A DNA stretch of 33,497 nt from Candidatus Roizmanbacteria bacterium CG_4_9_14_0_2_um_filter_38_17 (GCA_002788855.1 PFSB01000003.1:1-33497), one strand, 5' to 3'; shown: positions 5,903 through 33,497, counted from the stretch's first letter. Program-made: numbers and translations. Notes: generated from the letters alone by a model not told the origin.

Positions 5903-6313
5903 ATGACAAAAGCATCAACCAAGAAAAGTAACAAAGTTCTTACAGAAGCCCGTGTAAGAAAAATTGTTAAAGAGGAAATACAGCATCTGGCTACTAAGGA
6001 TGATATCAAGAATATGGCTACTAAGGATGATATCAAGAATATGGCTACTAAGGATGATATCAAGAATATGGCTACTAAGGATGATATTCGACGACTAGAT
6101 AATAAAATCTGGATGACTGAGCAAAACTTTGACCAGAAGCTTGATGATAAGTTTCGCCATTACATGGATATGATATTAAGAAGTCAAGATAAAGTAGTCA
6201 AAGAGCTCGCGGATATGCGCGATGAATTTGACACAATGGTTGGCTACAGAGATCAACTTGAAGATCATGAGACTAGAATAGAATCCCTTGAAAGTCGAGT
6301 CTTAATCCAGTAA
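5903..6313 (+). CDS. Coiled-coil protein with 9-residue tandem repeats (paralog 1 of 3)
   Basis: Protein of 136 residues, highly charged and predicted to be mostly coiled coil. It opens with a basic segment followed by LTEARVRKIVKEEIQHL, which the second paralog shares. A perfect tandem repeat ATKDDIKNM (three full copies and a partial one, about residues 30-62) follows, and the protein ends with EDHETRIESLESRVLIQ. Proteins of this style are common and unannotated in CPR genomes; no enzymatic motif is visible. It is followed by the AbrB/PIN pair and two further paralogs that keep the same C-terminal ending. Confidence 0.7.
   Translation: MTKASTKKSNKVLTEARVRKIVKEEIQHLATKDDIKNMATKDDIKNMATKDDIKNMATKDDIRRLDNKIWMTEQNFDQKLDDKFRHYMDMILRSQDKVVKELADMRDEFDTMVGYRDQLEDHETRIESLESRVLIQ
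5991..6087 (+). repeat. 27-nt in-frame tandem repeat, about 3.6 copies
   Basis: Three identical 27-nt units (5991-6017, 6018-6044, 6045-6071) and a partial fourth (6072-6087). They encode repeated ATKDDIKNM. Perfect identity points to recent slippage or expansion. Confidence 0.95.
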
Positions 6314-6360
6314 TCCCCTACTTATAAAGACCCGATCTTTATATACAAATGTAATACTGA

Positions 6361-6389
6361 TTGACAAAAGTAATACATTGTATTATAAT
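6361..6389 (+). promoter_or_regulatory. Consensus promoter and likely operator of the AbrB/PIN module
   Basis: TTGACA (6361-6366), a 17-nt spacer and TATAAT (6384-6389) match the sigma70 consensus exactly, with the start codon 8 nt later. GTAATAC occurs at 6351-6357 and 6370-6376, and the second copy pairs with GTATTAT at 6380-6386 as an inverted repeat around ATT overlapping the -10. This is a plausible site for autorepression by the antitoxin. Confidence 0.8.
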
Positions 6390-6397
6390 CGTTACAT

Positions 6398-6652
6398 ATG
6401 CAATTAAGCACAATAACACAAAAAGGTCAGGTTACAATTCCTATTCAAATCAGAAAGTTTTTACAAGTAACAGCAGATAGCCAAGTGGTGTTTATTAAGG
6501 TGGCTAACAAAGTAGAGCTTCACAAAGCCGTAGATATTGTTCAGCTTAAAGGTTCCATAGATACGACTAAAAAGTATTCAGATAAAGAGGCGGATAAGTC
6601 GGTTGCAGATTATCTGTCAAAAGATCATGCAGACAAAATCAAAACTTCTTGA
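6398..6652 (+). CDS. AbrB/MazE-type antitoxin (SpoVT-AbrB domain)
   Basis: Protein of 84 residues. The N-terminal half is a swapped-hairpin AbrB DNA-binding domain with the typical TITQKGQVTIPIQIRKFLQV pattern (residues 5-24), then a strand VVFIKVANKVEL. The C-terminal tail (KYSDKEADKSVADYLSKDH) should wrap the toxin. It overlaps the PIN gene by 26 nt, so the two are translationally coupled. In this family the antitoxin blocks the toxin and represses the shared promoter; the inverted repeat over the -10 box fits that. Confidence 0.88.
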   Translation: MQLSTITQKGQVTIPIQIRKFLQVTADSQVVFIKVANKVELHKAVDIVQLKGSIDTTKKYSDKEADKSVADYLSKDHADKIKTS

Positions 6653-7028
6653 TGCAAATATAATTCTTCGCCTGTTGACGGAAGATAGCTCAAAACAAGC
6701 TGAGGCGGTTGCCAGTTTGATTAGAGATGCTCGTCCAAATGAACTAGAATTACCCGATGTTGTTTTGGCAGAAATCGTCTGGGTATTGCAGTCATATTAC
6801 AGCCTTAAAAAACCTGCAATAATTACTAGTCTTCGGGCTCTTATTGAAACAAAGGGCATTAAATTAAATCGTGAACTGCTTGGGCTTATAATTTCTATAT
6901 ACCAAGATAATAATATTTCTTATATTGACGCTTACCTTGCCGCCAGATCAAAGCTGGAGAATAAACTTTTATATACATTTGATCAGCGCCTAGAGCAAAT
7001 TACAGGCTCCAAAGGCAAAACACCATAA
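6627..7028 (+). CDS. PIN-domain toxin (VapC-like endoribonuclease)
   Basis: The start at 6627 (MQTKSKLLDANIILRLL, 133 residues) puts the conserved N-terminal Asp at the usual position; an in-frame ATG at 6603 would add eight residues with no counterpart in the family. The acidic PIN residues are visible: Asp in LLDANIILR, Glu in LAEIVWVLQ, Asp in YIDAYLAARS and Asp in YTFDQRL. These coordinate Mg2+ for single-strand RNA cleavage. It overlaps the antitoxin gene by 26 nt and is followed by a 37-nt hairpin terminator. Confidence 0.88.
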   Translation: MQTKSKLLDANIILRLLTEDSSKQAEAVASLIRDARPNELELPDVVLAEIVWVLQSYYSLKKPAIITSLRALIETKGIKLNRELLGLIISIYQDNNISYIDAYLAARSKLENKLLYTFDQRLEQITGSKGKTP

Positions 7029-7036
7029 GTAAGTAC

Positions 7037-7074
7037 AAGACTAAGCCTTCCATTTCATGAAGGGCTTAGTCTTT
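7037..7074. terminator. 37-nt hairpin (family A) after the PIN gene
   Basis: AAGACTAAGCCTTC pairs with GAAGGGCTTAGTCTT (one bulged G) around a CATTTCAT loop and is followed by TTTT. It is one of four 37-nt hairpins of common design in this window. Confidence 0.75.
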
Positions 7075-7116
7075 TACGATAAAATCCCACGACTGCCCCG
7101 GATATAAATAAAATCC

Positions 7117-7146
7117 TTGACACATCTTTCATAAATTTAGTATTAT
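7117..7146 (+). promoter_or_regulatory. Sigma70-type promoter, copy 2 of a duplicated promoter
   Basis: TTGACA at 7117-7122 and TATTAT at 7141-7146 with an 18-nt spacer, 6 nt before the ATG. Nearly identical to the promoter at 5867-5896. Confidence 0.75.
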
Positions 7147-7152
7147 TTAGTT

Positions 7153-7539
7153 ATGATAAAAACACTTACAGAGGCTCGGGTGAGAAAAATTGTTAGAGAA
7201 GAAACAAGTCATCTAGTCACGAAAGAAGATGCTAAACAGTTTTTAACTAAGGAAGATGGAGAGAAATTTGCTACAAAAAAAGATTTAATTGGTTTAGCTC
7301 GAGGAACAGAGCTTGATGAGTTAAAAATTGAATTTAAAGATAACCTTGCTAAGTGGAAAGACGAATTATTTACTAAAATTGATGCCGTGTTAGGAAGGTT
7401 TGATAAAGCGGAGACCGAGAGAATTATTCTGCAGGAGCGCGAGCGATCAAACAGCAAGAAAAATGGCCACCTCAAAGCTCAGGTTCATGATCATGAGAAT
7501 AGAATTGAAATCTTCGAAAAACAGGTGTTAATCCAGTAA
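7153..7539 (+). CDS. Coiled-coil protein (paralog 2 of 3)
   Basis: Protein of 128 residues, charged and helical. It shares the N-terminal LTEARVRKIVREE block and the C-terminal HENRIEIFEKQVLIQ block with the gene at 5903, and the middle has TKEDAKQFLTKEDGEKFATKKD, a degenerate form of that gene's repeats. Conserved ends with a divergent middle, together with the duplicated promoter, indicate a tandem duplication. Molecular role unknown. Confidence 0.7.
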   Translation: MIKTLTEARVRKIVREETSHLVTKEDAKQFLTKEDGEKFATKKDLIGLARGTELDELKIEFKDNLAKWKDELFTKIDAVLGRFDKAETERIILQERERSNSKKNGHLKAQVHDHENRIEIFEKQVLIQ

Positions 7540-7554
7540 CCAATAAGCGAGTAT

Positions 7555-7592
7555 AAGGCTAAGCCCTTCATGTAATGAAAGGCTGAGCCTTT
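7555..7592. terminator. 37-nt hairpin (family A) after paralog 2
   Basis: AAGGCTAAGCCCTTCAT pairs imperfectly with ATGAAAGGCTGAGCCTT around GTA, followed by a short T run. Confidence 0.7.
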
Positions 7593-7622
7593 AATATTTA
7601 TAAGCGTCTGTTGAAAATTACT

Positions 7623-7639
7623 ACAGGGTCAAACCCTGT
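7623..7639. repeat. 17-nt palindrome ACAGGGTCAAACCCTGT (copy 1 of 3)
   Basis: Seven-base arms around CAA. Other copies are at 31572-31588 (opposite orientation) and 31796-31812. This copy lies between a terminator and the start of paralog 3; the TTGACT at 7640-7645 immediately beyond it may serve as a -35. Confidence 0.85.
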
Positions 7640-7674
7640 TTGACTAATCCGTAAAACAAAGTTAATATAGTGTA

Positions 7675-7962
7675 ATGTTGACTAAAAAAGATCTTAAATT
7701 AATAGCCGAGCTCTATAATGAGTCTCGCAAGGAGTTCGCGCGTGGATTTGGTCAGTTGAAAGAGGAAATGAGTCAGTTGAGAGAGGAAATGAGTCAGTTG
7801 AGAGAGGAAATAAAAGATCGAATCTATAAATCTGAAGATAAAATACTCAAAGAACTTGCTGATATGCGAGATGAACTAATAATAACTTCAGGCTATTCCG
7901 ACCGCCTGGAAAATCACGAAGAAAGAATTGAAAGTCTTGAGAAGCAGGTGTTAATCCAGTAG
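7675..7962 (+). CDS. Coiled-coil protein (paralog 3 of 3)
   Basis: Protein of 95 residues, nearly all helical. The N-terminus differs from the other two (MLTKKDLKLIAELYN), the middle contains the seven-residue repeat EEMSQLR, and the C-terminus LADMRDEL...RLENHEERIESLEKQVLIQ closely matches the gene at 5903 (LADMRDEF...ETRIESLESRVLIQ). A heptad repeat is direct evidence for a coiled coil. The promoter is unclear: possible TTGACT at 7640 with a weak -10 near 7662-7667. Confidence 0.68.
   Translation: MLTKKDLKLIAELYNESRKEFARGFGQLKEEMSQLREEMSQLREEIKDRIYKSEDKILKELADMRDELIITSGYSDRLENHEERIESLEKQVLIQ
7751..7813 (+). repeat. 21-nt in-frame tandem repeat, three copies
   Basis: Units at 7751-7771, 7772-7792 and 7793-7813 encode a heptad containing SQLREEM. 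Only single-base differences separate them. Confidence 0.9.
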
Positions 7963-8032: not shown

Positions 8033-10048
8033 ATGTCACAAGAAACCGCTGATCCTATAATAAGTCATCAGGCTGATCTGGATTTTCAGGCTCTACAGGG
8101 TTTGAATTTAAACCCAGAAATAGCTAAACCACTCGGTGCTCTCCCGTTTACCAGGGGTGATGATTATCCAAATGTTGAGATAGCTGTGATGGAGTTGCCT
8201 GGTGGACCAAATCAAAAAGAATCTGCAAGTGCAGTCGTGCAGGCTGCAGATGCTCTTTCATCAGATAACAATAGGCCGGTGGTGGTAGTAGATTTAAGAA
8301 GTTTTGGTCAATCTCATGGAGCATTCGCTTCTTCTTTTGATGGGAAGGGTATCCACTATCTTGCACCAGGATATGAAACTCGCTACAGGGCAACGATGGG
8401 GAAAAAATCAAGTACGCCAACAGATTTCTATCAAGAAGATGTTTACAAAGATGTTGATGAATATATTCAACAACTACCAGTAACTATAGCCACACATTTC
8501 AGTAACCAAGAAATGAAGACACGCACTGACATGCAAGTTAAAGCAGTGGTTAATCACTCAAGAGTTATTATTCTGGCAGATGAAAAGGCAGCAAGTGAGT
8601 ATGCTGCTCACTTAAAACAGAGAGTTCAAGACAAGCCTGAAAATACTCATAGAATCAATTCAGATAATATTTGTCATAGTTGTGGTAATGCTATTTATCG
8701 TGGAAGAGCACCAGTTTGCCCCGCCTGCGCAACGTTAGTAATTACTCTAGATCAGTTGGATGCAGAGTTAGGAGCTAAATCAGCTCCTCCCCAACCAGAT
8801 GAAAGAGAATGGGTAAGAGGAATGGGCATACATGCTATGGATGGTGGATTTTCAATGGCAGGGATTGATATTCCATCAAGACCTGAACTAGACTCTGATC
8901 CAACTACTTTCGCTACTGATAGGTTTGCAGGTATTATTCAGTGGGATGGGAATGCAAGACAAGTTCTTGGAAAGCAAAGCTTTACTGATTATCTTGATAA
9001 TATTTATGACGAAGCTAATGCAGGCGGTATGAATCCGCATAGCGCACTAGAACATGCAATTTCAGAGTTAAGCAAAGCAATGCCTGGAGTCAATATAGTT
9101 ATGAGCTTGATTAGTGATGGCTATGGTTCAATAATAGGAAGTACGGGTACGATGATGGATTCGGTGATATTTAGTGATCACAATATGCCTCATTATCATA
9201 GTAAGTATTCAGGAAAGCCAAATCCAGCTAAGGTTGTATACTCAATAGGAGGCGCAGTCGATAAACTTCCAGTTACGAATATTATTATGTTTAGTAGCTC
9301 AGCAAGAAATTTAATCCAAGCAGAACTTGATTCTCAACAATTTAGAAACCTATTTACTAATCCAGCGAAGGGGGAGAATATTTCTAGTCCTATGCATCAC
9401 TTGGCAGATGTACTTAAGGTAGCTAAGCTTGACCAGCCAACAGCAATTGTAGGAATGTCTAATTCTGAAAGATTATCAGTTGCCCCAGCTATAGCCCTCG
9501 AACCCTCCCCCACCCCAGAGCTGTTGACTAAACATATTGAAGGCTGGCAAATGTTGTTTCAAACGACAGAGGGGCCATGGGAATCTCTTGGAGAGGCAAG
9601 GCAAGCTGAATTAGAAGAAAGATTTATGGAAACCATTAGAACATATACTGCTCTAAGCAGTGCCCCTGAAGCAGAGAGACCCGCAAGTGATCTTATGGCA
9701 TCAGCAGTTAATACCCTTGCCGCTGTTGCTGCTTTTCGCCCTGAGCTGGCAGGCAAACTTGCCCAGAGGGTGGTTGATGGGATTGAGCTTGTACTCGGTA
9801 ACCCAACAGATGCGGATCTTAATACAGCAATCGTTTATGTAAATGATGTTACAAAGCAGATTGCCCAGGACCCAACACGCGCAGCTACTCTTGTATCTTC
9901 AAACCTGCAACTAAGCTTTGCAAGAACTATGGTTATATTGGCAGATAGGCTTAAAAATGTCCCAGCTCAAGATCGGATTACATTTGCTAAAAATCAGCTG
10001 GCCAGTCCTCTGTATTACATTCCTGGATTGCTAGAGGGTGTTATTTAA
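8033..10048 (+). CDS. Zinc-ribbon protein with a degenerate PP2C-like domain
   Basis: Protein of 671 residues with no signal peptide, so probably cytoplasmic. In order: an alpha/beta N-terminal region (about 45-200) that I cannot assign; a four-cysteine zinc ribbon (CHSC at 214-217, CPAC at 229-232); a region at about 258-476 that follows the strand order of PP2C phosphatases; and a helical C-terminal part (about 490-671). PP2C-like landmarks are DRFAGIIQWDG where active enzymes have DGMGG, NIVMSLISDGYGSIIGSTGTM where they have GDSR, IIMFSSSARNLI for the SDGL strand, and DQPTAIVGMSN for the DN strand. Most metal-binding Asp are replaced, so I infer a pseudophosphatase. It heads a four-gene plus-strand cluster. 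Confidence 0.55.
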   Translation: MSQETADPIISHQADLDFQALQGLNLNPEIAKPLGALPFTRGDDYPNVEIAVMELPGGPNQKESASAVVQAADALSSDNNRPVVVVDLRSFGQSHGAFASSFDGKGIHYLAPGYETRYRATMGKKSSTPTDFYQEDVYKDVDEYIQQLPVTIATHFSNQEMKTRTDMQVKAVVNHSRVIILADEKAASEYAAHLKQRVQDKPENTHRINSDNICHSCGNAIYRGRAPVCPACATLVITLDQLDAELGAKSAPPQPDEREWVRGMGIHAMDGGFSMAGIDIPSRPELDSDPTTFATDRFAGIIQWDGNARQVLGKQSFTDYLDNIYDEANAGGMNPHSALEHAISELSKAMPGVNIVMSLISDGYGSIIGSTGTMMDSVIFSDHNMPHYHSKYSGKPNPAKVVYSIGGAVDKLPVTNIIMFSSSARNLIQAELDSQQFRNLFTNPAKGENISSPMHHLADVLKVAKLDQPTAIVGMSNSERLSVAPAIALEPSPTPELLTKHIEGWQMLFQTTEGPWESLGEARQAELEERFMETIRTYTALSSAPEAERPASDLMASAVNTLAAVAAFRPELAGKLAQRVVDGIELVLGNPTDADLNTAIVYVNDVTKQIAQDPTRAATLVSSNLQLSFARTMVILADRLKNVPAQDRITFAKNQLASPLYYIPGLLEGVI

Positions 10049-10075
10049 AAACTGGTATGAGAACTGTATTTGAGA

Positions 10076-10081
10076 TATAAT
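10076..10081 (+). promoter_or_regulatory. -10 box of the gene at 10089
   Basis: TATAAT with the start codon 7 nt later. Confidence 0.55.
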
Positions 10082-10088
10082 TTAGATA

Positions 10089-11363
10089 ATGGTACAAGAA
10101 ACTGTTGAAGCTATTCCCCAACCTCATAATGAGCTATTAAGCTCTGCATTTTCTTATGGCTCTGCCACCCCCGGCTCCCAGTTGTTTTGTGATGGAGCCA
10201 GACTTGCTGATGATAGCTTGATTAGGGATGCCTACTATGGAAATCTGTTTCGAGGTTCTGTAGACACCATGCGTCAAGTTGGAGCATTGGATGATGCAGT
10301 TTTTATTCATAGCCCCAGTGGCGAAGCTCAAGCTGAAGATCATCCAGGTATTGACCTGTTGGTAAGTAAATATAAGGAAGCTGCAATATTGGCTGCGCGG
10401 GGAAGTAGCCGTGGAAAAAGATTTGAATGGGACCTATCAAACTACTATGACAAAGATAAAGACCCACTCAAAAATTCTGATCTAGCTTGTGCTGATGTTC
10501 GAGATGATCTTGCAAATGTGGCCTTAAAGGGAAATGCTAAAGCTGTCCACGTATCAGAAGGCGGGGCAAGTTTTGTTAGTACAGATGAACCCGATGAAAA
10601 ATCAGGAGTATCTGTAAATAGTGAGAGTATACAGCTGAAAATGGGAGATAGGATACTACTTATTACTGGTTCTGCAGTTGAGAAAGTTACAGCAATGACG
10701 GGAGCTCAGATTGCCGAATTATCTAGCTCTCCACAAAAAATAAAAGCTCTAGTTGCCGAGCTTGGTGAAAGCCAGGGAGCAATTACGGTTATCGAGAATA
10801 GGTTTGATGGTACCCCAGCTATTCTAAAGCAATTTGAAAAAGTAATTGAAAAGGGCGAACAATGGGCAGAGTTACCGGACGCGGATAAACGCACTGCCAC
10901 AGGCGCACTTATGCGCACTCTTGAATTGGCAAACTTAGATAAAGAAAAAGGACCTGACCAGGCAGCCCAAATAATAGGTAAATTTATCCAGCTGGGTAAA
11001 GGAGCTCTGCCTGACTTGATGGTTCAATTAGGAATAAGGTGGGAAATACCAAGTCAGGATGAATTTGATTTTGCTACAAACTTATATCATGCTGGTCAGC
11101 TTGATGCCGTTATGGCCTATGCTACTGCCAATCAGATTACTGATGTGAATAGACTTCCGGAAACAATGAGAACAGCATTTACAACAAACTTTAGTATGTT
11201 TTTATTGGCAATGGAAAATGTGGACAGACAAGACCAAGCAGTAGGTGCGTTTGGAGCTGTACTTGGGACTTTTCCGGCTTATATTAAGCAAATGGCTGAT
11301 AGAAATTTATTGCGTAGTAGTTGGAATAATAAGCTGAGATATTTGAATAATCCATTAGGTTAA
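10089..11363 (+). CDS. Second degenerate PP2C-like protein with helical C-terminus
   Basis: Protein of 424 residues, no signal peptide. Residues about 140-240 align by eye with the C-terminal half of PP2C phosphatases: ANVALKGNAKAVHVSEGGASFVS corresponds to the strand pair carrying GDSR, IQLKMGDRILLITGSAVEKV to the GDRLLLCSDGL strand, and IAELSSSPQKIKALVAEL plus GAITVIENRF to the closing helix and DNITVVV strand. The catalytic Asp are absent (GSA for DGL, EGG for GDS). Residues 245-424 are helical. The architecture mirrors the C-terminal two thirds of the gene before it, suggesting distant paralogs that may dimerise. Catalytic inactivity is inferred from the sequence alone. Confidence 0.58.
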   Translation: MVQETVEAIPQPHNELLSSAFSYGSATPGSQLFCDGARLADDSLIRDAYYGNLFRGSVDTMRQVGALDDAVFIHSPSGEAQAEDHPGIDLLVSKYKEAAILAARGSSRGKRFEWDLSNYYDKDKDPLKNSDLACADVRDDLANVALKGNAKAVHVSEGGASFVSTDEPDEKSGVSVNSESIQLKMGDRILLITGSAVEKVTAMTGAQIAELSSSPQKIKALVAELGESQGAITVIENRFDGTPAILKQFEKVIEKGEQWAELPDADKRTATGALMRTLELANLDKEKGPDQAAQIIGKFIQLGKGALPDLMVQLGIRWEIPSQDEFDFATNLYHAGQLDAVMAYATANQITDVNRLPETMRTAFTTNFSMFLLAMENVDRQDQAVGAFGAVLGTFPAYIKQMADRNLLRSSWNNKLRYLNNPLG

Positions 11364-11365
11364 GA

Positions 11366-11371
11366 GATAAT
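11366..11371 (+). promoter_or_regulatory. -10 box of the gene at 11379
   Basis: GATAAT, 7 nt before the ATG and 2 nt after the previous stop codon. Confidence 0.45.
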
Positions 11372-11378
11372 AAAATAT

Positions 11379-14300
11379 ATGAGTGATCGAGAACCACAAC
11401 CAGCAGGAGCACCAATATTTACTTTCGGTGGTGCTAGTGAGGAGACCAGGACAGGTATAGCTGGAACAACTGAGGCAGTAGGCGCTGGAAATCCATTTAT
11501 GAATCTTTCAAATAGCACTGCAGCTCCGTCAATTCCAGATAGTGAGCCTGTGGTTACTACAAGTCCACAACAACCAGCTGTCAATGCGGCGCCTCGGCCA
11601 CAGCATCCAATTTGGGCTTCTGATCCAGCAGATAGGAATACCCCGCCAGTTCGAGAAAAAAAATCTTGGAAGGATTGGAGGCCTTGGAAAAAGAGTGAAC
11701 CTTCTTCAGCTTCAGAAGTTCAACCAGCTCTTGCTCCCCCAGCTCCTGCTACAGGTGGTTTGGGTATAGGTGTGGATGTTGTTAAGGCAGTTGGTGTTGA
11801 ACTACCCAAACGAACAGCGCTACTTATTAATGAAGCCATTACAAGAATAACTCTGGCTGGTGAAGGCAGATATCAACTGGCTGGAATTGCAACTGGAGTT
11901 CTTGCAGATGTAGGTGCTGAACTGGCTGGTCAATATTTGCAACAATATGGAGTCAATACAACTGCGATTAGGATGTGGAAAAATGCTGCAGCTTTAAGTT
12001 TAAGCACTGTAGTACATTCTGTTTTTAATATGGAAGGAATGAAAGCTGCTGCTGCTGGTGATATGATGAGACTATCACAGATAGAAAATCGTCGTGGTAA
12101 GGTTGCATCATTTCTGGGTGGACTTGCGGTGGAGTCAGTTGGGTCAGCTGCCCAAATGGCAGGTTCTAGATTTATCGACCAAGTTCAACATACGGGTGCT
12201 GGTGAATGGCTTGCTCGTGCAGTTGATTTATCTCCAAACTCTGAGTTTTCTCAAGGTGAAAATGGTGTAATTCATGTGGGTGCTGTTGGTGGTAATGATG
12301 CAACATTGGGCGAGTTGGCTGCTAATCTGGATGGCAACTATCGTAATAACTTCTCTGCCGAAGAGCTAGGTGGTGTCATTCATCAAAATTCAGAAGCTAT
12401 AAATGGAGCAATTAATGAGCTAAATGATGTGACGGATACTGAACCAATCAGAGGTGCGTTTGATCGTGTGATGGGTTATTCTGGGGAATTTACGGAAGAC
12501 TATACAGAAAGTATGTACAAGAATGATCTTAGATTGTTAGCAAATGGTGTGTCATTAACATCAATAGATTTCACACCTCCAGCTTTGCCCGAGCCAGCAG
12601 CAGAACCAGAACAGGCTAAGGCACCTGAACCTGCAGCGACAGTTGCACCAGTACAGTCTACAGAAACAGCTACACCTGAACCAACTGCTACTACGCCAGT
12701 AGAAGAAGATATTGAGCCTCCAGCAGGAGAACCTGCAGACAAAGTAGTTATAGAATCTACTACCTCAACTGGAGCATCTGTAGAGCGGGCTGAGGTAGGA
12801 CCTGCGATTGAAGTCTTTCAAACAGAGGGTGATGAATGGATGAAATCTACTGAGAGTCTTATTAATAAACTCGATCAAATTTTTGTCGATCAAGATAATG
12901 GACTAACTGACGACCAACGTGCACAGGTTAATTATCATAGAAATAATCTGCGTGAATTTGTTACAGGAACCGCATTACCTGATGCTGATTACCGAACTGG
13001 AGTGGGATCACCTGTTGATCTTCCAACTTTGGTTTCATCGATTGATAACCCTGAACTTGCACAGATAGCAATTGCTAATGAAGGAGAGAGACTTGATGCC
13101 TTAGGTGCAATGCAGGACATGTTAATACAAGATCTTGAGGCAGACCTATCTGAAGCACAAAGCGGTACACAAGCTATAACTGTTGCAGAAAATCAGACTG
13201 CTGCTCAAGCACTAGAGCAGTCCAAAGGTGATGCATTTAATCCAACTGATTCTAATTCCCTGCCTCAGGGTGGAAATGATTCATACATTGCTCAGATTCA
13301 GGAAAGGCTGGATCTTGAACGCGAGATTAAGACTGAGATAGATCAACGACAGATTGCATTAGAACAAGTCAAAAACTCAAGTCCGGATAGTACAAAGCAA
13401 GCAGATAACTGGTTCCAAGCTATACATGGTAGCCCAGCAGAACCAGAACAGGCTAAGGCACCTGCTCCCGCTGAAGCGGTTATTCCTGCTGTTGATGTAG
13501 CAAAAGCAGATGCTTCGGGGGTTACTGTAACAGAAAATACAGATGGAGTTACACAGGTAGAGGTTACTACTGATGACAAAACTTTATCAGACGTGCGGGC
13601 AAGGGTAGGGGCTAATGCTAGTTTTGATTCACAAGTTAATTTCATAGTAGCAAATCAGGAAGCCATTCGGGCTGAGATAAATGAATTACCCGATGGATCA
13701 CAGGAGCGCGTTGCCGCGCAAACTGCCCTAGACAGAGTTATAGCTAACCCACCATGGGGAGGTGATGGTGATCCTAGGGGTACAGATTTTCAGACTTTGG
13801 GGCAACTTCCTCTGGAAAAAGGAGATACTTTTGTAGCACCAGCAGCGGCCGTAGAGGCTAATGCAGCGCCTGCACAATCCATAGTTGCAGAGTCTTCTAA
13901 ACTAGATGATCAAGCAATTAGGATATCAGAGCAAGATGGACAACAAAAAGCAGAAGTTGCTGGAGAAGATGGAGCGACACTAGCCACGCTACGTGAAACT
14001 GCCCTACCGGATGCGGACCTTGCTGGGAAAGTAAATTTTGTAGAAGCAAACTTTGATACAATTCTAGAAGAGATTGCTGAAATGCCAGAAGGCTCAGATA
14101 AAGAAGAAGCCAGACAAGCGCTTTTCGGTATCTTAGCAAATGATATGGTTGATAAAGATGAAAGTGAATTTTTATCAGATCTTCAAATTCTTGATCAAAT
14201 TCAGCTGGAAAAGGGTGATGTTCTAGTAGCGCCTACCAATGTAGAAGCTAATCCACAAACGGTTGCTCCTGTAACTGCTGAACAACCCATAGTAGAAACT

Positions 14301-14663
14301 TCAGCAACAGCTAGTGCTGATGGATTAAGTGTTGAGGTTAGTGCTTCAGGTATGACAACTGTTACAGTTGAAGCTGGTCACCCTATGACTTTCACAAATG
14401 TTATTGAACAAGTAAGAACAGAACAAGGATTAGGATCAATAAATCCAAATAATAGAGCCGATCAAGTATGGTTAAGTACTGTGATTGCTCAAAACTTCGT
14501 TGCTTTAAATACTGCGGCTGCAAATTCTCATAATGGAATGCTTCAGACATTCCTTGTTTCTGTATTTCATCAGACAACAATGGCTGCTCCAGCTATAAAA
14601 GCTGGGTATGAAGGAGTGATGAACTTAGTGCTTAGTGGAGTAACTTTAACATTTAGTAAATAG
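11379..14663 (+). CDS. Giant (1094 aa) repeat protein with LysM-like domains
   Basis: The largest gene here, not recognised as a whole. Residues 1-120 are disordered, rich in Pro, Ala and Thr with a basic KKSWKDWRPWKKSE patch. About 125-275 is an Ala/Gly-rich helical region that could be amphipathic or membrane-associated; no classical signal peptide is seen. Low-complexity Pro/Ala/Glu linkers (AEPEQAKAP occurs twice) separate further domains. Residues about 715-818 and 847-953 are a repeat pair, each with a TL.. start, VNFI.AN or VNFVEAN in the middle and LEKGD.(L/F)VAP at the end, resembling an expanded LysM fold; a third, weaker unit may lie at 985-1094. LysM domains usually bind GlcNAc polymers such as peptidoglycan. 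Confidence is high in the gene and low in the domain name. Confidence 0.6.
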   Translation: MSDREPQPAGAPIFTFGGASEETRTGIAGTTEAVGAGNPFMNLSNSTAAPSIPDSEPVVTTSPQQPAVNAAPRPQHPIWASDPADRNTPPVREKKSWKDWRPWKKSEPSSASEVQPALAPPAPATGGLGIGVDVVKAVGVELPKRTALLINEAITRITLAGEGRYQLAGIATGVLADVGAELAGQYLQQYGVNTTAIRMWKNAAALSLSTVVHSVFNMEGMKAAAAGDMMRLSQIENRRGKVASFLGGLAVESVGSAAQMAGSRFIDQVQHTGAGEWLARAVDLSPNSEFSQGENGVIHVGAVGGNDATLGELAANLDGNYRNNFSAEELGGVIHQNSEAINGAINELNDVTDTEPIRGAFDRVMGYSGEFTEDYTESMYKNDLRLLANGVSLTSIDFTPPALPEPAAEPEQAKAPEPAATVAPVQSTETATPEPTATTPVEEDIEPPAGEPADKVVIESTTSTGASVERAEVGPAIEVFQTEGDEWMKSTESLINKLDQIFVDQDNGLTDDQRAQVNYHRNNLREFVTGTALPDADYRTGVGSPVDLPTLVSSIDNPELAQIAIANEGERLDALGAMQDMLIQDLEADLSEAQSGTQAITVAENQTAAQALEQSKGDAFNPTDSNSLPQGGNDSYIAQIQERLDLEREIKTEIDQRQIALEQVKNSSPDSTKQADNWFQAIHGSPAEPEQAKAPAPAEAVIPAVDVAKADASGVTVTENTDGVTQVEVTTDDKTLSDVRARVGANASFDSQVNFIVANQEAIRAEINELPDGSQERVAAQTALDRVIANPPWGGDGDPRGTDFQTLGQLPLEKGDTFVAPAAAVEANAAPAQSIVAESSKLDDQAIRISEQDGQQKAEVAGEDGATLATLRETALPDADLAGKVNFVEANFDTILEEIAEMPEGSDKEEARQALFGILANDMVDKDESEFLSDLQILDQIQLEKGDVLVAPTNVEANPQTVAPVTAEQPIVETSATASADGLSVEVSASGMTTVTVEAGHPMTFTNVIEQVRTEQGLGSINPNNRADQVWLSTVIAQNFVALNTAAANSHNGMLQTFLVSVFHQTTMAAPAIKAGYEGVMNLVLSGVTLTFSK
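12598..12627 (+). repeat. 30-nt direct repeat inside the giant gene (copy 1)
   Basis: Identical to 13435-13464 and in the same frame, encoding the AEPEQAKAP linker. It may have arisen by duplication of a domain-plus-linker unit. Confidence 0.85.
13435..13464 (+). repeat. 30-nt direct repeat inside the giant gene (copy 2)
   Basis: Second identical copy of 12598-12627; it precedes the LysM-like repeat pair. Confidence 0.85.
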
Positions 14664-14669
14664 TATAAT
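14664..14669 (+). promoter_or_regulatory. -10 box of the gene at 14676
   Basis: TATAAT directly follows the TAG stop (14661-14663) of the giant gene and lies 6 nt before the next ATG. Confidence 0.55.
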
Positions 14670-14675
14670 TAAAAC

Positions 14676-15062
14676 ATGACCACCAACCAAACAACGCCAG
14701 ATAGTTTCAGGGATTATGTAGCAGAAGTTCTAAAAACCCTGTATGAAGCTGGACATAAGCCAGAGCAGGTTCAGCCACTCCTCAAAGAATGGATTAAGAT
14801 TGCCCATGCTAAGGTATACAGTGATTTAGTATTGGCTTTTACAGATCAAGAACTTGAAGAGGCAGAAAGAGTGGCTAGAGAAGAACAGCGTTCAAAAGAA
14901 GAAATGCAGGGCATGCTGAAAGATCTCTATATTAAAAAGACAGGAAAGAATCCAGATGATTTGGCCAAAGAGTGTCTAAATACCCTTGCTCGTGCTTTCA
15001 TGGAAACATATGACAAAAATCAAGCTAGAGCAGAAATCGAGAAAATAAAACCAGTTCAATAG
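14676..15062 (+). CDS. Small helical hypothetical protein
   Basis: Protein of 128 residues, almost entirely charged helix with no TM segment or signal. Motif-like stretches are VAEVLKTLYEAGHKPEQVQPLLKEW and YSDLVLAFTDQELEEAERVAREEQ. It resembles in style the small acidic helical proteins of CPR genomes, but I cannot name a family. As the last gene of the 8033-15062 cluster it could be a partner or regulator of the larger proteins. It ends only 6 bases from the stop of the convergent gene. Confidence 0.6.
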   Translation: MTTNQTTPDSFRDYVAEVLKTLYEAGHKPEQVQPLLKEWIKIAHAKVYSDLVLAFTDQELEEAERVAREEQRSKEEMQGMLKDLYIKKTGKNPDDLAKECLNTLARAFMETYDKNQARAEIEKIKPVQ

Positions 15063-15068
15063 GCAGAT

Positions 15069-15803
15069 CTACTCCGTATTCTCTCCTCCAGTTGTTGTTA
15101 CTTGGACTGTTGACGTGGCTGAAACGGCGCCTAAGCAACTGCCGCCTGTATATAGTTTAGCGGTATGACCCTGTAAGACAACACTAAATGCTGGATTGTT
15201 ACCTGGAATCATAGATGAGCTATTGCCTGTATTACTTGTTGTAATAGCGTTACAATTTAAGGTTGTAGCTCCAGTTTGGTCTTCTGTTTTATAACTATAT
15301 CCAGTGTTAATATTTCCAGTTATTACAATTCTAATACCTACTGGTGAATTTGGGCTCGGTGGCGTTGCTTGAAGATATATTTTCGTTACTCCTATGCTCT
15401 CTGGAACTGGTGTTGCGGTTGGCGGTTGAGGTGCTATGGTTGCCGTTGGACCAGCAGGTGGGGTTGTTGGGGCTACCACTGGTGGGGTTGTGGAGAAATC
15501 TGGGGCTATTATTGCTGTTGGGCTGCCTAAGAAGATCCAGCCAATAAAGGCCGCAAACACAAAGCTAGCTACAATTAAGAGTAACCCTATGAGCGACTTC
15601 CAGATGCTCCCCCACGCCTCAGATATAGCATCGGGGTTTTCCCCAGCTTGCATAAACTTATATCCTGCTACAACAAAATTCCAGGTTGCAAATAGCCCCC
15701 CAATGACTGTTATTAAACGGATAATAAAACTGGCAAGATTTGCAAACCCACCCTGTAAGATTGGAGAAGCGGGCGGCGTTACTCCTGTCCCAATAAATTC
15801 CAT
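15069..15803 (-). CDS. Two-TM pilin-like (TrbC/VirB2-style) protein with long exported tail
   Basis: Protein of 244 residues. The N-terminal 90 residues carry two TM helices (about 27-46 and 69-92) joined by a short loop containing QAGENPDAISEAWGSIWKS; this two-helix pattern with a Gly-Gly in the first helix is typical of VirB2/TrbC-like pilin proteins frequent in CPR genomes. A Pro/Thr linker (about 100-135) leads to a roughly 100-residue Ser/Thr-rich domain with two Cys (LNCNAI and GGSCLG) that may be displayed outside. The extra domain is not part of usual pilins. TACAAT lies 6 nt before the start and TTGCCA 18 nt further up. The pilin-like call rests on topology only. Confidence 0.55.
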   Translation of the reverse strand: MEFIGTGVTPPASPILQGGFANLASFIIRLITVIGGLFATWNFVVAGYKFMQAGENPDAISEAWGSIWKSLIGLLLIVASFVFAAFIGWIFLGSPTAIIAPDFSTTPPVVAPTTPPAGPTATIAPQPPTATPVPESIGVTKIYLQATPPSPNSPVGIRIVITGNINTGYSYKTEDQTGATTLNCNAITTSNTGNSSSMIPGNNPAFSVVLQGHTAKLYTGGSCLGAVSATSTVQVTTTGGENTE

Positions 15804-28849: not shown

Positions 28850-29119
28850 TCAACGACCCCATTTGTTATAGTCATCATGACTACCAACATTCACTAGGAT
28901 AACTGTATTTTTAGCTTCAAAATCAAAAAGCACCCTATGACCATTTTTCAAATAGAAGGAATAGTAGTCTGCTAAATTTCCCTTAAGTTTGTGAGTATGC
29001 AAGGAGGGACTAAATGGGTTGTTAAAAAATATCTTTATTTTTTGCTCAAAATCCCTTTTTATCTTAGTCGACAGTTTCTTAAAAGACCGTTTAAATTGAG
29101 AAGAACGGTTGATCTTCAT
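28850..29119 (-). CDS. RelE/YafQ-type mRNA interferase toxin
   Basis: Protein of 89 residues, strongly basic. The RelE-fold pattern is clear: an N-terminal strand and helix (INRSSQFKRSFKKLSTKIKRDFEQKI), FFNNPFSPSLHTHKLKG, DYYSFYLKNGHRVLFDF and the final VILVNVGSHDDYNK with the His/Asp typical of the family. Such toxins cleave ribosome-bound mRNA. It follows the antitoxin stop codon by 6 nt. The two genes replace the 5' part of a duplicated gene, suggesting arrival by insertion. Confidence 0.88.
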   Translation of the reverse strand: MKINRSSQFKRSFKKLSTKIKRDFEQKIKIFFNNPFSPSLHTHKLKGNLADYYSFYLKNGHRVLFDFEAKNTVILVNVGSHDDYNKWGR

Positions 29120-31779: not shown

Positions 31780-31899
31780 TTACCAAGCGCTATTTACAGG
31801 GTCAAACCCTGTAATTTCAACGCGAAACTCCAGATTATAATCTGTTTCTCCGTGGCGAACAAGGTATATTGTACAGGGGTTAGAAAGCTTCTTCTTCAT
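31780..31899 (-). pseudogene. Truncated histidine phosphatase (phosphoglycerate mutase-like) remnant
   Basis: A 39-residue frame starts at an ATG overlapping the TGA of the upstream gene (ATGA). It reads MKKKLSNPC, then TIYLVRHGETDYNLEFRV, which is the catalytic N-terminus of the histidine phosphatase superfamily (RHGET), and then EITGFDPVNSAW and a stop. TGFDPV is encoded by the palindrome at 31796-31812. The other roughly 150 residues of the family are missing, so the gene is broken. Confidence 0.75.
31796..31812. repeat. 17-nt palindrome ACAGGGTCAAACCCTGT (copy 3 of 3)
   Basis: Lies within the histidine phosphatase remnant, shortly before the point where its reading frame ends. Confidence 0.85.
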
Positions 31900-32957
31900 T
31901 TATCACTTCCCATGAGTTTTTCAACTTTTTGGAGCTCTTTTTGGATAGCAACTAGTTTTGAGGCAGTTGAGTAGTCTTCGTCTTTGACAAAGTACACCAC
32001 TGGCTTATTGAGGGCTTCGGCTATCTCTTCAAGGGTATTGAGGGATGGCTCTGCTCGTCCTACTTCCCAGGCACTAACTGTCTTATCTGAAACTTTTATA
32101 GCCTTACCTAGGTCTCGCTGAGAGAGTCCTGCGTCCTTACGGGCCTGTTTAATGTGAGAAAGGACATATTCACTTAACTTTACTTCGCGCTTAGTGCTTG
32201 ACATATTAGTTATATCAACCGTTACATATTTATTAGTAAATAATAAGTGAAATGCGGTGTGCAATTCATCAACTGACTTAGTGCTATACATTATTGCTTT
32301 ATCTATCTTATTACCAGCCTGTGGCGCTAGGAATACTAATACATCTTGCCCTTTCCAGTCAAAACTGTCTATGATAGTTAATTTTTTATCAGGGACAAGT
32401 ATAGGATAATTCCCTATCTGTAGTTTATAGAGAGCAATGCCAATTGCCAATTCTATTCCATATAAATTTCGGTCCCTGCCACGACGAATATACTGCTTAT
32501 TATGAGTGAGAGCATACTTGTATAATTCGGCCTCAACAAGGTATGACATACCAATGGGTAGTTTTATTCCGGTGTCGCGTGGAATTGCTTTATATGCTGT
32601 AACCAAATGGTCTCCCCGATCACTAAAAAGAAGTCCCCCGATGTATTGATTCCCCTTATATACGCTCACAGCTTTATAGGGATAGCTATGAGGAGGTTTG
32701 GTAATTATTTTGTATTTAACATCATGCACTTGTCCGCCAATGCTCTGGATGTGACGGGTGTATATCTTGATAAAGTTATCTATAAATTCTTCGTTAACGT
32801 CGTCAACTTTGATATTGTAGTTGTTTTCAGCTAGATGTTGCTCCGCTTTGTGGATTTTCTTGCGGGTTTTACCACCAAAAGGAGCTAGATAATTATCATA
32901 GTCAGATATATCTATTCTCCAGCTAATTTTCTGAGGGTAATCACCGTTAATATTCAT
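31896..32957 (-). CDS. Acyltransferase-like (FemAB/GNAT) protein fused to an XRE HTH domain
   Basis: Protein of 353 residues from MNINGDYPQKISW, with TATAAT (32967-32972) 9 nt upstream; a longer in-frame start would read through the promoter. Residues about 15-240 resemble FemAB/GNAT-type transferases: YDNYLAPFGGKTRKKIHKAEQ, YKAVSVYKGNQYIGGLLFSDRG and TAYKAIPRDTGIKLPIGMSYLVEAEL. Residues about 265-322 form an XRE helix-turn-helix (IKQARKDAGLSQRDLGKAI, SDKTVSAWEVGRAEPSLNTL). The donor and acceptor of the transferase are unknown. The 15-nt palindrome over its own -10 suggests autoregulation. It once ran into a histidine phosphatase gene, now truncated. Confidence 0.7.
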   Translation of the reverse strand: MNINGDYPQKISWRIDISDYDNYLAPFGGKTRKKIHKAEQHLAENNYNIKVDDVNEEFIDNFIKIYTRHIQSIGGQVHDVKYKIITKPPHSYPYKAVSVYKGNQYIGGLLFSDRGDHLVTAYKAIPRDTGIKLPIGMSYLVEAELYKYALTHNKQYIRRGRDRNLYGIELAIGIALYKLQIGNYPILVPDKKLTIIDSFDWKGQDVLVFLAPQAGNKIDKAIMYSTKSVDELHTAFHLLFTNKYVTVDITNMSSTKREVKLSEYVLSHIKQARKDAGLSQRDLGKAIKVSDKTVSAWEVGRAEPSLNTLEEIAEALNKPVVYFVKDEDYSTASKLVAIQKELQKVEKLMGSDK

Positions 32958-32960
32958 ATG

Positions 32961-32975
32961 TGTTATATTATAACA
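32961..32975 (-). promoter_or_regulatory. Palindromic operator candidate over the -10 of the XRE fusion gene
   Basis: TGTTATATTATAACA is a perfect 7+1+7 palindrome that contains the minus-strand TATAAT (32967-32972). Symmetry and position fit binding by the dimeric HTH protein encoded next to it. Confidence 0.6.
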
Positions 32976-33013
32976 CCCACTCCTGGAGTGGGTTAGGTTG
33001 ACACCTAAGGAAT
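32976..33013. repeat. 38-nt double palindrome (copy 2 of 2)
   Basis: Identical to 15877-15914. Here it fills the spacer and -35 region between two divergent promoters and brings a TTGACA (32998-33003) toward def, although 20 nt from its -10. Confidence 0.9.
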
Positions 33014-33021
33014 AAACTGCT

Positions 33022-33029
33022 GATATAAT
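33022..33029 (+). promoter_or_regulatory. Extended -10 promoter of def
   Basis: TATAAT at 33024-33029 preceded by TG one base upstream; the ATG follows after 6 nt. Confidence 0.6.
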
Positions 33030-33035
33030 AACCTT

Positions 33036-33497
33036 ATGCGTGTAATACAAGTTCCAGCTCATGTCTTAACTACTAAAGCTGAGACAATAGTCAAATTTGA
33101 TAATAAACTGCTCAAGCTAGTCGAGGAAATGATAGACACTTTAGAAAAAACCAAGGATCCGGAGGGTGTGGGATTAGCGGCTGTCCAAGTGGGAATTGCA
33201 AAGCGCATTTTTGTCATGAACACTCGTCCGGAAAGCACTAGAGGTGGTAAATATGAGTCTTTTATAAATCCAAAAATTATAGAAAAAGAGAAGGATAAGG
33301 CTGACAAAGTATTAGAAGGTTGTTTGTCTATTGAGAATATTTGGGGGTATCCAGAAAGAGCAAGTGGTGTAAAACTAGTTTACCAGGATCTTAAAGGTAA
33401 AAAGCATATCAAAAAATTTATAGGATTTGGAGCAGTCATTGTTCAACACGAAGTCGACCACTTACAAGGAAGACTTTTTACACACCGAGTAATTGAG
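33036..33497 (+). CDS. def: Peptide deformylase, 3' end outside window
   Basis: Metalloprotease that removes the formyl group from the N-terminal Met of new proteins. All three motifs are visible: GVGLAAVQVG (the usual Pro before Gln is Val here), EGCLSIENIWGYPERA with the metal-binding Cys, and QHEVDHLQGRLF with the two metal-binding His and catalytic Glu. A total of 154 codons are inside the window, and only the C-terminal tail is cut off. The start MRVIQVPAHVL is set by the extended -10 box 6 nt upstream. Confidence 0.95.
   Translation, partial: MRVIQVPAHVLTTKAETIVKFDNKLLKLVEEMIDTLEKTKDPEGVGLAAVQVGIAKRIFVMNTRPESTRGGKYESFINPKIIEKEKDKADKVLEGCLSIENIWGYPERASGVKLVYQDLKGKKHIKKFIGFGAVIVQHEVDHLQGRLFTHRVIE

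Follow-up and report, generated by a model that had tools for sequence, protein, structure and literature searches.

A conserved pair of genes for a large and a small protein, with lineage-specific neighbours and a suggestive link to type IV secretion, in a Candidatus Roizmanbacteria genome

Pairs of genes encoding a secretion chaperone and its substrate are a known arrangement in bacterial genomes. The Patescibacteria grow on other cells, a way of life for which their type IV secretion system (T4SS) is considered important. In the part of the published account on which we draw, homologues of VirB, TrsD, PrgI and pilins are listed for the Patescibacteria T4SS and several T4SS genes are cited as essential for the epibiotic growth of Ca. 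S. epibionticum, and a pair like the one described below is not mentioned there (PMC12102498). Here we analyse a run of four genes, named P1 to P4, at positions 8033-15062 of a stretch of 33,497 nucleotides from the ultra-small Candidatus Roizmanbacteria bacterium CG_4_9_14_0_2_um_filter_38_17 (GCA_002788855.1, PFSB01000003.1:1-33497), the whole of which is called the window. An earlier note on this DNA had proposed a new system of two pseudo-PP2C proteins (P1 and P2) with a giant LysM-like protein (P3) and a small helical partner (P4). We find that the conserved signal is in P3 and P4, which that note treated as partners, and that these two genes form a conserved pair in the class to which the host belongs. 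The pair and its features are as follows.

11379..14663, plus strand: P3, 1094 aa; large and acidic, with linkers that look disordered, a hydrophobic region rich in Gly, and LysM-like repeats.
11754..12158, plus strand: the hydrophobic Gly-rich region of P3, containing 'GRYQLAGIATGVLADVGAELAG', with a borderline alignment to the P3 family.
13497..14282, plus strand: two tandem LysM-like repeats of P3, each ending LEKGD(T/V)xVAP (37% identity, E=3e-20).
14676..15062, plus strand: P4, 128 aa; small and helical-looking, of an unnamed family found across the class.

Relatives of P4 are found in the class by single-sequence search with E-values down to 1e-10, and a profile of nine members has matches in 15 of the 374 class genomes. 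At every one of the 14 other class loci that were read, P4 lies directly downstream of the gene for a large protein, which is 415 to 1031 aa long where complete and is cut by the contig end in two cases. Membership of the P4 family is defined here by a profile match together with a position directly behind a large protein, and P4 of the window shows both. P3-P4 is a conserved two-gene pair of the class. P4 matches no named family, and no known chaperone family, in Pfam or NCBIfam. When its profile was compared with the PDB, the best matches were de novo designed helical proteins, covering one helix and with no stretch passing alone, and these were taken as an effect of composition. A phylum-wide search beyond the class gave weaker P4 matches (E 1e-5 to 1e-10) with less clear neighbourhoods, which were left out of the argument.

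Six of the large proteins that precede P4 (L117, L118, L119, L121, L123 and L124; L numbers denote the loci compared) form one family by alignment, and they share a pair of hydrophobic segments rich in Gly as well as a C-terminal domain, which starts with 'GDTVGQ(I/L)L...G' and ends with 'LHW(I/V)P.GG.FK(V/L)L'. A structure model of the L119 protein, predicted from seven sequences, has block means of pLDDT mostly of 82-91 in this domain, with the order strand-helix-helix-(helices)-strand-helix and strands at residues 232-236 and 334-338. As modelled, the domain fits a LysM-like fold carrying an insertion. The top fold matches of the model were Bcl-2-like, with E about 1, and are meaningless. 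P3, described in the earlier note as a giant LysM-like protein, has two clear tandem repeats, and Pfam LysM (PF01476) finds neither P3 nor its homologues. When P3 of the window is aligned to the family, 'GRYQLAGIATGVLADVGAELAG' falls in register on the first of the hydrophobic segments, at a borderline level (1 of 60 shuffles as good), and the last repeat of P3 scores against the family just above 60 shuffles. From its place before P4 and its layout, P3 of the window is likely a member of the large-protein family, marginally so by sequence.

The gene that faces P4 in the window may link the pair to secretion.

15069..15803, minus strand: T4SS pilin (PF18895-like), convergent with P4 and 6 bp from it; its N-terminal part matches PF18895 at E=4e-5, just below the curated cut-off.

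When the window is counted with the 14 other loci, a T4SS gene lies within about 10 kb of P4 in 6 of 15. The genes concerned encode pilins in the case of the window and L122, whereas L118/L147, L123, L124 and L146 each have a VirD4-like ATPase. The order in L146 is P3-P4-VirD4 on one strand, and in L123, L124 and the window the T4SS gene is within about 1 kb of the pair. The pilin of the window is 46% identical to that of L122 (E=6e-24), above the other pilins compared; the pilin profile was built partly from these two and favours them. The host genome also carries VirB4 (contig C1) and VirD4 (contig C17). Six T4SS-near loci in 15 give P=0.0007 at a background of 8% and P=0.006 at 12%, both rates being assumed. 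P1 to P4 themselves match no T4SS component family in Pfam or NCBIfam. A link of P3-P4 to the T4SS is suggested by these neighbourhoods.

The same loci can be read in another way, in which P3-P4 is a pair of the cell wall or division envelope with no tie to the T4SS, and T4SS genes are nearby since they are scattered in small genomes. The LysM-like features suggest contact with peptidoglycan, 9 of the 15 P4 loci have no T4SS gene nearby, and some neighbours, by reading of ORFs (open reading frames) by eye only, resemble a penicillin-binding protein (L117), divIC/xerC (L118/L147) and mraZ/mraW/ftsI (L146). The single run of P3-P4-VirD4 in L146 and the short distance of about 1 kb in three loci, the window among them, speak against this, and we consider it rather unlikely.

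The first two genes of the run differ from the pair in distribution, and their features are these.

8033..10048, plus strand: P1, 671 aa; an orphan whose N-terminus looks alpha/beta and whose C-terminus is helical, with a four-Cys ribbon and a putative pseudo-PP2C domain, as claimed earlier, in the middle.
8672..8728, plus strand: the CxxC-x11-CxxC zinc-ribbon-like motif of P1, residues 214-232.
10089..11363, plus strand: P2, 424 aa; an orphan with a possible degenerate PP2C-like N-terminal half and a helical C-terminal half.
10614..10754, plus strand: a segment of P2, 'VNSESIQLKMGDRILLITGS...', that aligns with the strand and helix at 'GD-LLL-(T/S)DG' in PP2C, the DG of the motif being replaced.

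The presence of four consecutive plus-strand ORFs was confirmed at the coordinates given. The gaps between them are 40 bp (P1-P2), 15 bp (P2-P3) and 12 bp (P3-P4), and from this operon-like packing it is likely that all four are co-transcribed. The host genome (1.09 Mb in 28 contigs) is the sole representative of its family and order among the genomes compared, and a Candidate Phyla Radiation (CPR) lineage agrees with the T4SS genes and with genome size in the class. P1 has no relatives among 280 class genomes, genome contigs, viral contigs or the ORFs of the P4 loci, and P2 has none among 380 phylum genomes, viral contigs, phage records or the same ORFs. The weak P2 matches that were inspected proved to be PriA and other unrelated genes, and RsmI, used as a synteny anchor, returned only distant phyla and no close relative. 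Neither protein has a meaningful match in Pfam, NCBIfam, PHROGs, PADLOC or PDB sequences, and the anti-phage system models of PADLOC find nothing in any of the four. P1 contains exactly four cysteines, all within its one CxxC-x11-CxxC ribbon, a feature absent from the earlier note. At their helical C-terminal ends P1 and P2 show a weak likeness (BLAST E=0.015, and an hhalign score exceeding that of each of 40 shuffles), so they may be paralogues of distant origin. Other proteins of the class that join PP2C to a helical part (L172, L175 and L178) have C-terminal ends unlike those of P1 and P2.

Many other P3-P4 loci hold large proteins of their own without family matches. Those of L117 and L121 are related, those of L123 and L124 weakly so, and the rest have no likeness or only a marginal one; none resembles P1 or P2. 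Because the neighbours of the pair differ in this way, we regard P1 and P2 as companions specific to this lineage rather than constant members of a four-gene system. Conservation of gene neighbourhood, which the earlier note proposed as a check, thus holds for P3-P4 at the 14 other loci and does not hold for the four-gene order; as a co-occurring unit the four genes fail, since P1 and P2 are found nowhere else, the order of the host being here one genome only. The variation of large orphan neighbours between lineages would also be expected if P1 and P2 were recent cargo or effector-like insertions beside P3-P4, with other genomes carrying different cargo at the same place. Simple genome shuffling accounts for differing neighbours as well, and no known effector domain was found in P1 or P2 by family and anti-phage model searches (secretion signals were not searched for), so that cargo is in our view an improbable explanation.

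Both of the first two proteins had been taken for degenerate PP2C phosphatases. We compared them with a profile made of B. subtilis PrpC and the PP2C-family proteins of the class found by PF13672, and with a broader profile in a second test; the PrpC sequence used matched annotated PP2C genes in a plasmid collection. PF13672 is above its cut-off in 24 of 137 class genomes, and the host genome has no PF13672 match, which cannot count against decayed domains. No PP2C family of Pfam, NCBIfam or PHROGs matches P1 or P2. Residues 176-222 of P2 ('VNSESIQLKMGDRILLITGS...') align to the PP2C profile in hhalign, with 'GDRILLITGS' placed on 'GDKLLLCSDG'. In local mode none of 60 shuffles, and with the broader profile none of 100, scored as high, and in global mode 1 of 100 was better. 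The pairwise P is 0.0048 at an hhalign probability of only 4-7%, which is weak in absolute terms. The aligned segment is without the DG of the SDG motif, and the other metal-binding motifs are not reliably alignable. A single-sequence structure prediction of P2 (pLDDT 41, pTM 0.24) was too low for a fold search. The strand order of P1 can be laid on PP2C by eye, which is a reading only, and against the profiles P1 is indistinguishable from shuffles (10 of 60 and 19 of 100 as high). The PP2C claim therefore keeps weak support for P2, where a marginal ancestry may be read from the local alignment, and is unsupported for P1.

Some other PP2C-like proteins of the class were seen in passing. Two class genomes encode large proteins (L142:2756-4441 and L200:8264-10279) whose N-terminal half resembles PP2C and which also have a transmembrane segment and a C-terminus of propeller-like type, the latter with an NHL match in L142; both adjoin smpB-like and comF-like genes (names read by eye), and L200 has an array of T4SS pilins at a distance of 3-6 kb. 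The loci L174, L177, L181 and L183 encode PP2C-like proteins of about 245 aa with partly altered motifs (e.g. TAGCGNYLT replacing the TDG motif), alongside relatives of equal length whose motif looks intact, an apparent series of decaying PP2C proteins. PF13672 domains also occur within very large proteins in L160 (G091) and L180 (G103), whose open frames are 1597 and 2633 aa long.

If P1-P4 were a single system devoted to signalling or assembly, with the two pseudo-PP2C proteins as sensors or scaffolds for the giant P3, this would agree with the tight spacing of all four genes, the PP2C-like segment of P2 and the weak resemblance between P1 and P2 at their helical ends. P1 is without a PP2C signal, however, and both genes are missing from all other P3-P4 loci, whose neighbours are unrelated to them. 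We hold such a single system to be improbable, and the four-gene "pseudo-PP2C system" of the earlier note is only partly supported.

The explanation we favour, with a probability of roughly 0.45, is that P3-P4 is a conserved pair, probably associated with the envelope or the T4SS, and that P1 and P2 are its lineage-specific partners. P4 would act in the cytoplasm as the dedicated chaperone or adaptor of P3, to which it would bind, and P3 would be inserted in the envelope or exported to it in connection with the T4SS. P1 and P2 would be fast-evolving, lineage-specific cytosolic proteins, probably co-transcribed with the pair, which bind a P3-P4 complex; P2 would probably be a decayed PP2C domain that serves binding and not catalysis. 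Of all this, the sequence data themselves establish the P4 family, the adjacency of P4 to a large protein and the presence of T4SS genes near some of the loci. Several observations weigh against this explanation. A Foldseek search with the L119 model gave no PDB match, and LysM is thus unconfirmed by structure. The profile of the other P3 proteins does not find P3 of the window (no match listed at E<=10), whose homology rests on position, layout and borderline alignments. T4SS genes are near a minority of the P4 loci, and the comparison with 13 PP2C control loci (1 of 13, pilins) gives a Fisher P of 0.06. As P1 and P2 occur in no other locus, their link to P3-P4 rests on one genome.

A more specific form of the favoured explanation, which we offer as doubtful, is that P3-P4 makes up a hitherto undescribed module accessory to the T4SS of Patescibacteria, consisting of a large envelope-spanning or exported protein and its small partner, to which each lineage attaches partners of its own, including here at least one degenerate PP2C as a binding module. 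A conserved unnamed pair that lies near T4SS genes in several genomes would offer a definite candidate for a lineage-specific component still missing from this machinery. The pseudo-PP2C claim, if true, would mean that a decayed enzyme is among the components as well; the evidence for this is thin at present.

As for the surroundings of the run, they had been described as mostly of minus strand, which is right downstream and not upstream, where the ORFs at 5903-7962 are also on the plus strand. Among the upstream ORFs, an AbrB/MazE-like one overlaps a PIN-domain one at 6398-7028, likely a toxin-antitoxin pair, and two tandem small coiled-coil ORFs (7153-7539 and 7675-7962), both ending LEKQVLIQ, stand directly before P1. 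Further away, a YafQ/ParE-like toxin ORF (28850-29119) has mreB on one side and a PsbP-like gene on the other, and a protein encoded at 31896-33062 has an unusual combination of a weak FemAB-like stretch and a C-terminal Cro/C1-type helix-turn-helix. A promoter scan gave a count near chance expectation; terminator-like sites (14 against 6.3 expected by chance) are scattered inside genes and were not used as evidence.

Four known systems can be set beside this locus. With the PP2C/PPM phosphatases (PF13672; B. subtilis PrpC) and those of their relatives that have lost catalysis, P2 would share the correctly placed beta strand 'GD-ILLIT-', the helix after it and a weak global likeness, whereas it lacks a curated family match, a confident structure and the DG of SDG, and P1 gives no signal. 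With LysM domain proteins (PF01476), the P3 homologues share a 'GDT(V/L)..I' start, an asparagine after the second helix, a '(W)(I/V)P.G..' end strand and a predicted beta-alpha-alpha...beta order, and differ by several helices inserted before the last strand and by the lack of a Pfam or PDB fold match. Secretion chaperone-substrate pairs offer an analogy, as the small helical P4 is encoded directly beside the very large P3, although searches of Pfam and NCBIfam place P4 in no known chaperone family. From the Patescibacteria T4SS the pair differs in that P3 and P4 match no component and that the part of the account drawn on here mentions no such pair (PMC12102498), and it is alike in that the pilin of the window adjoins P4, the host has VirB4 and VirD4, and the pair lies near T4SS genes in several genomes.

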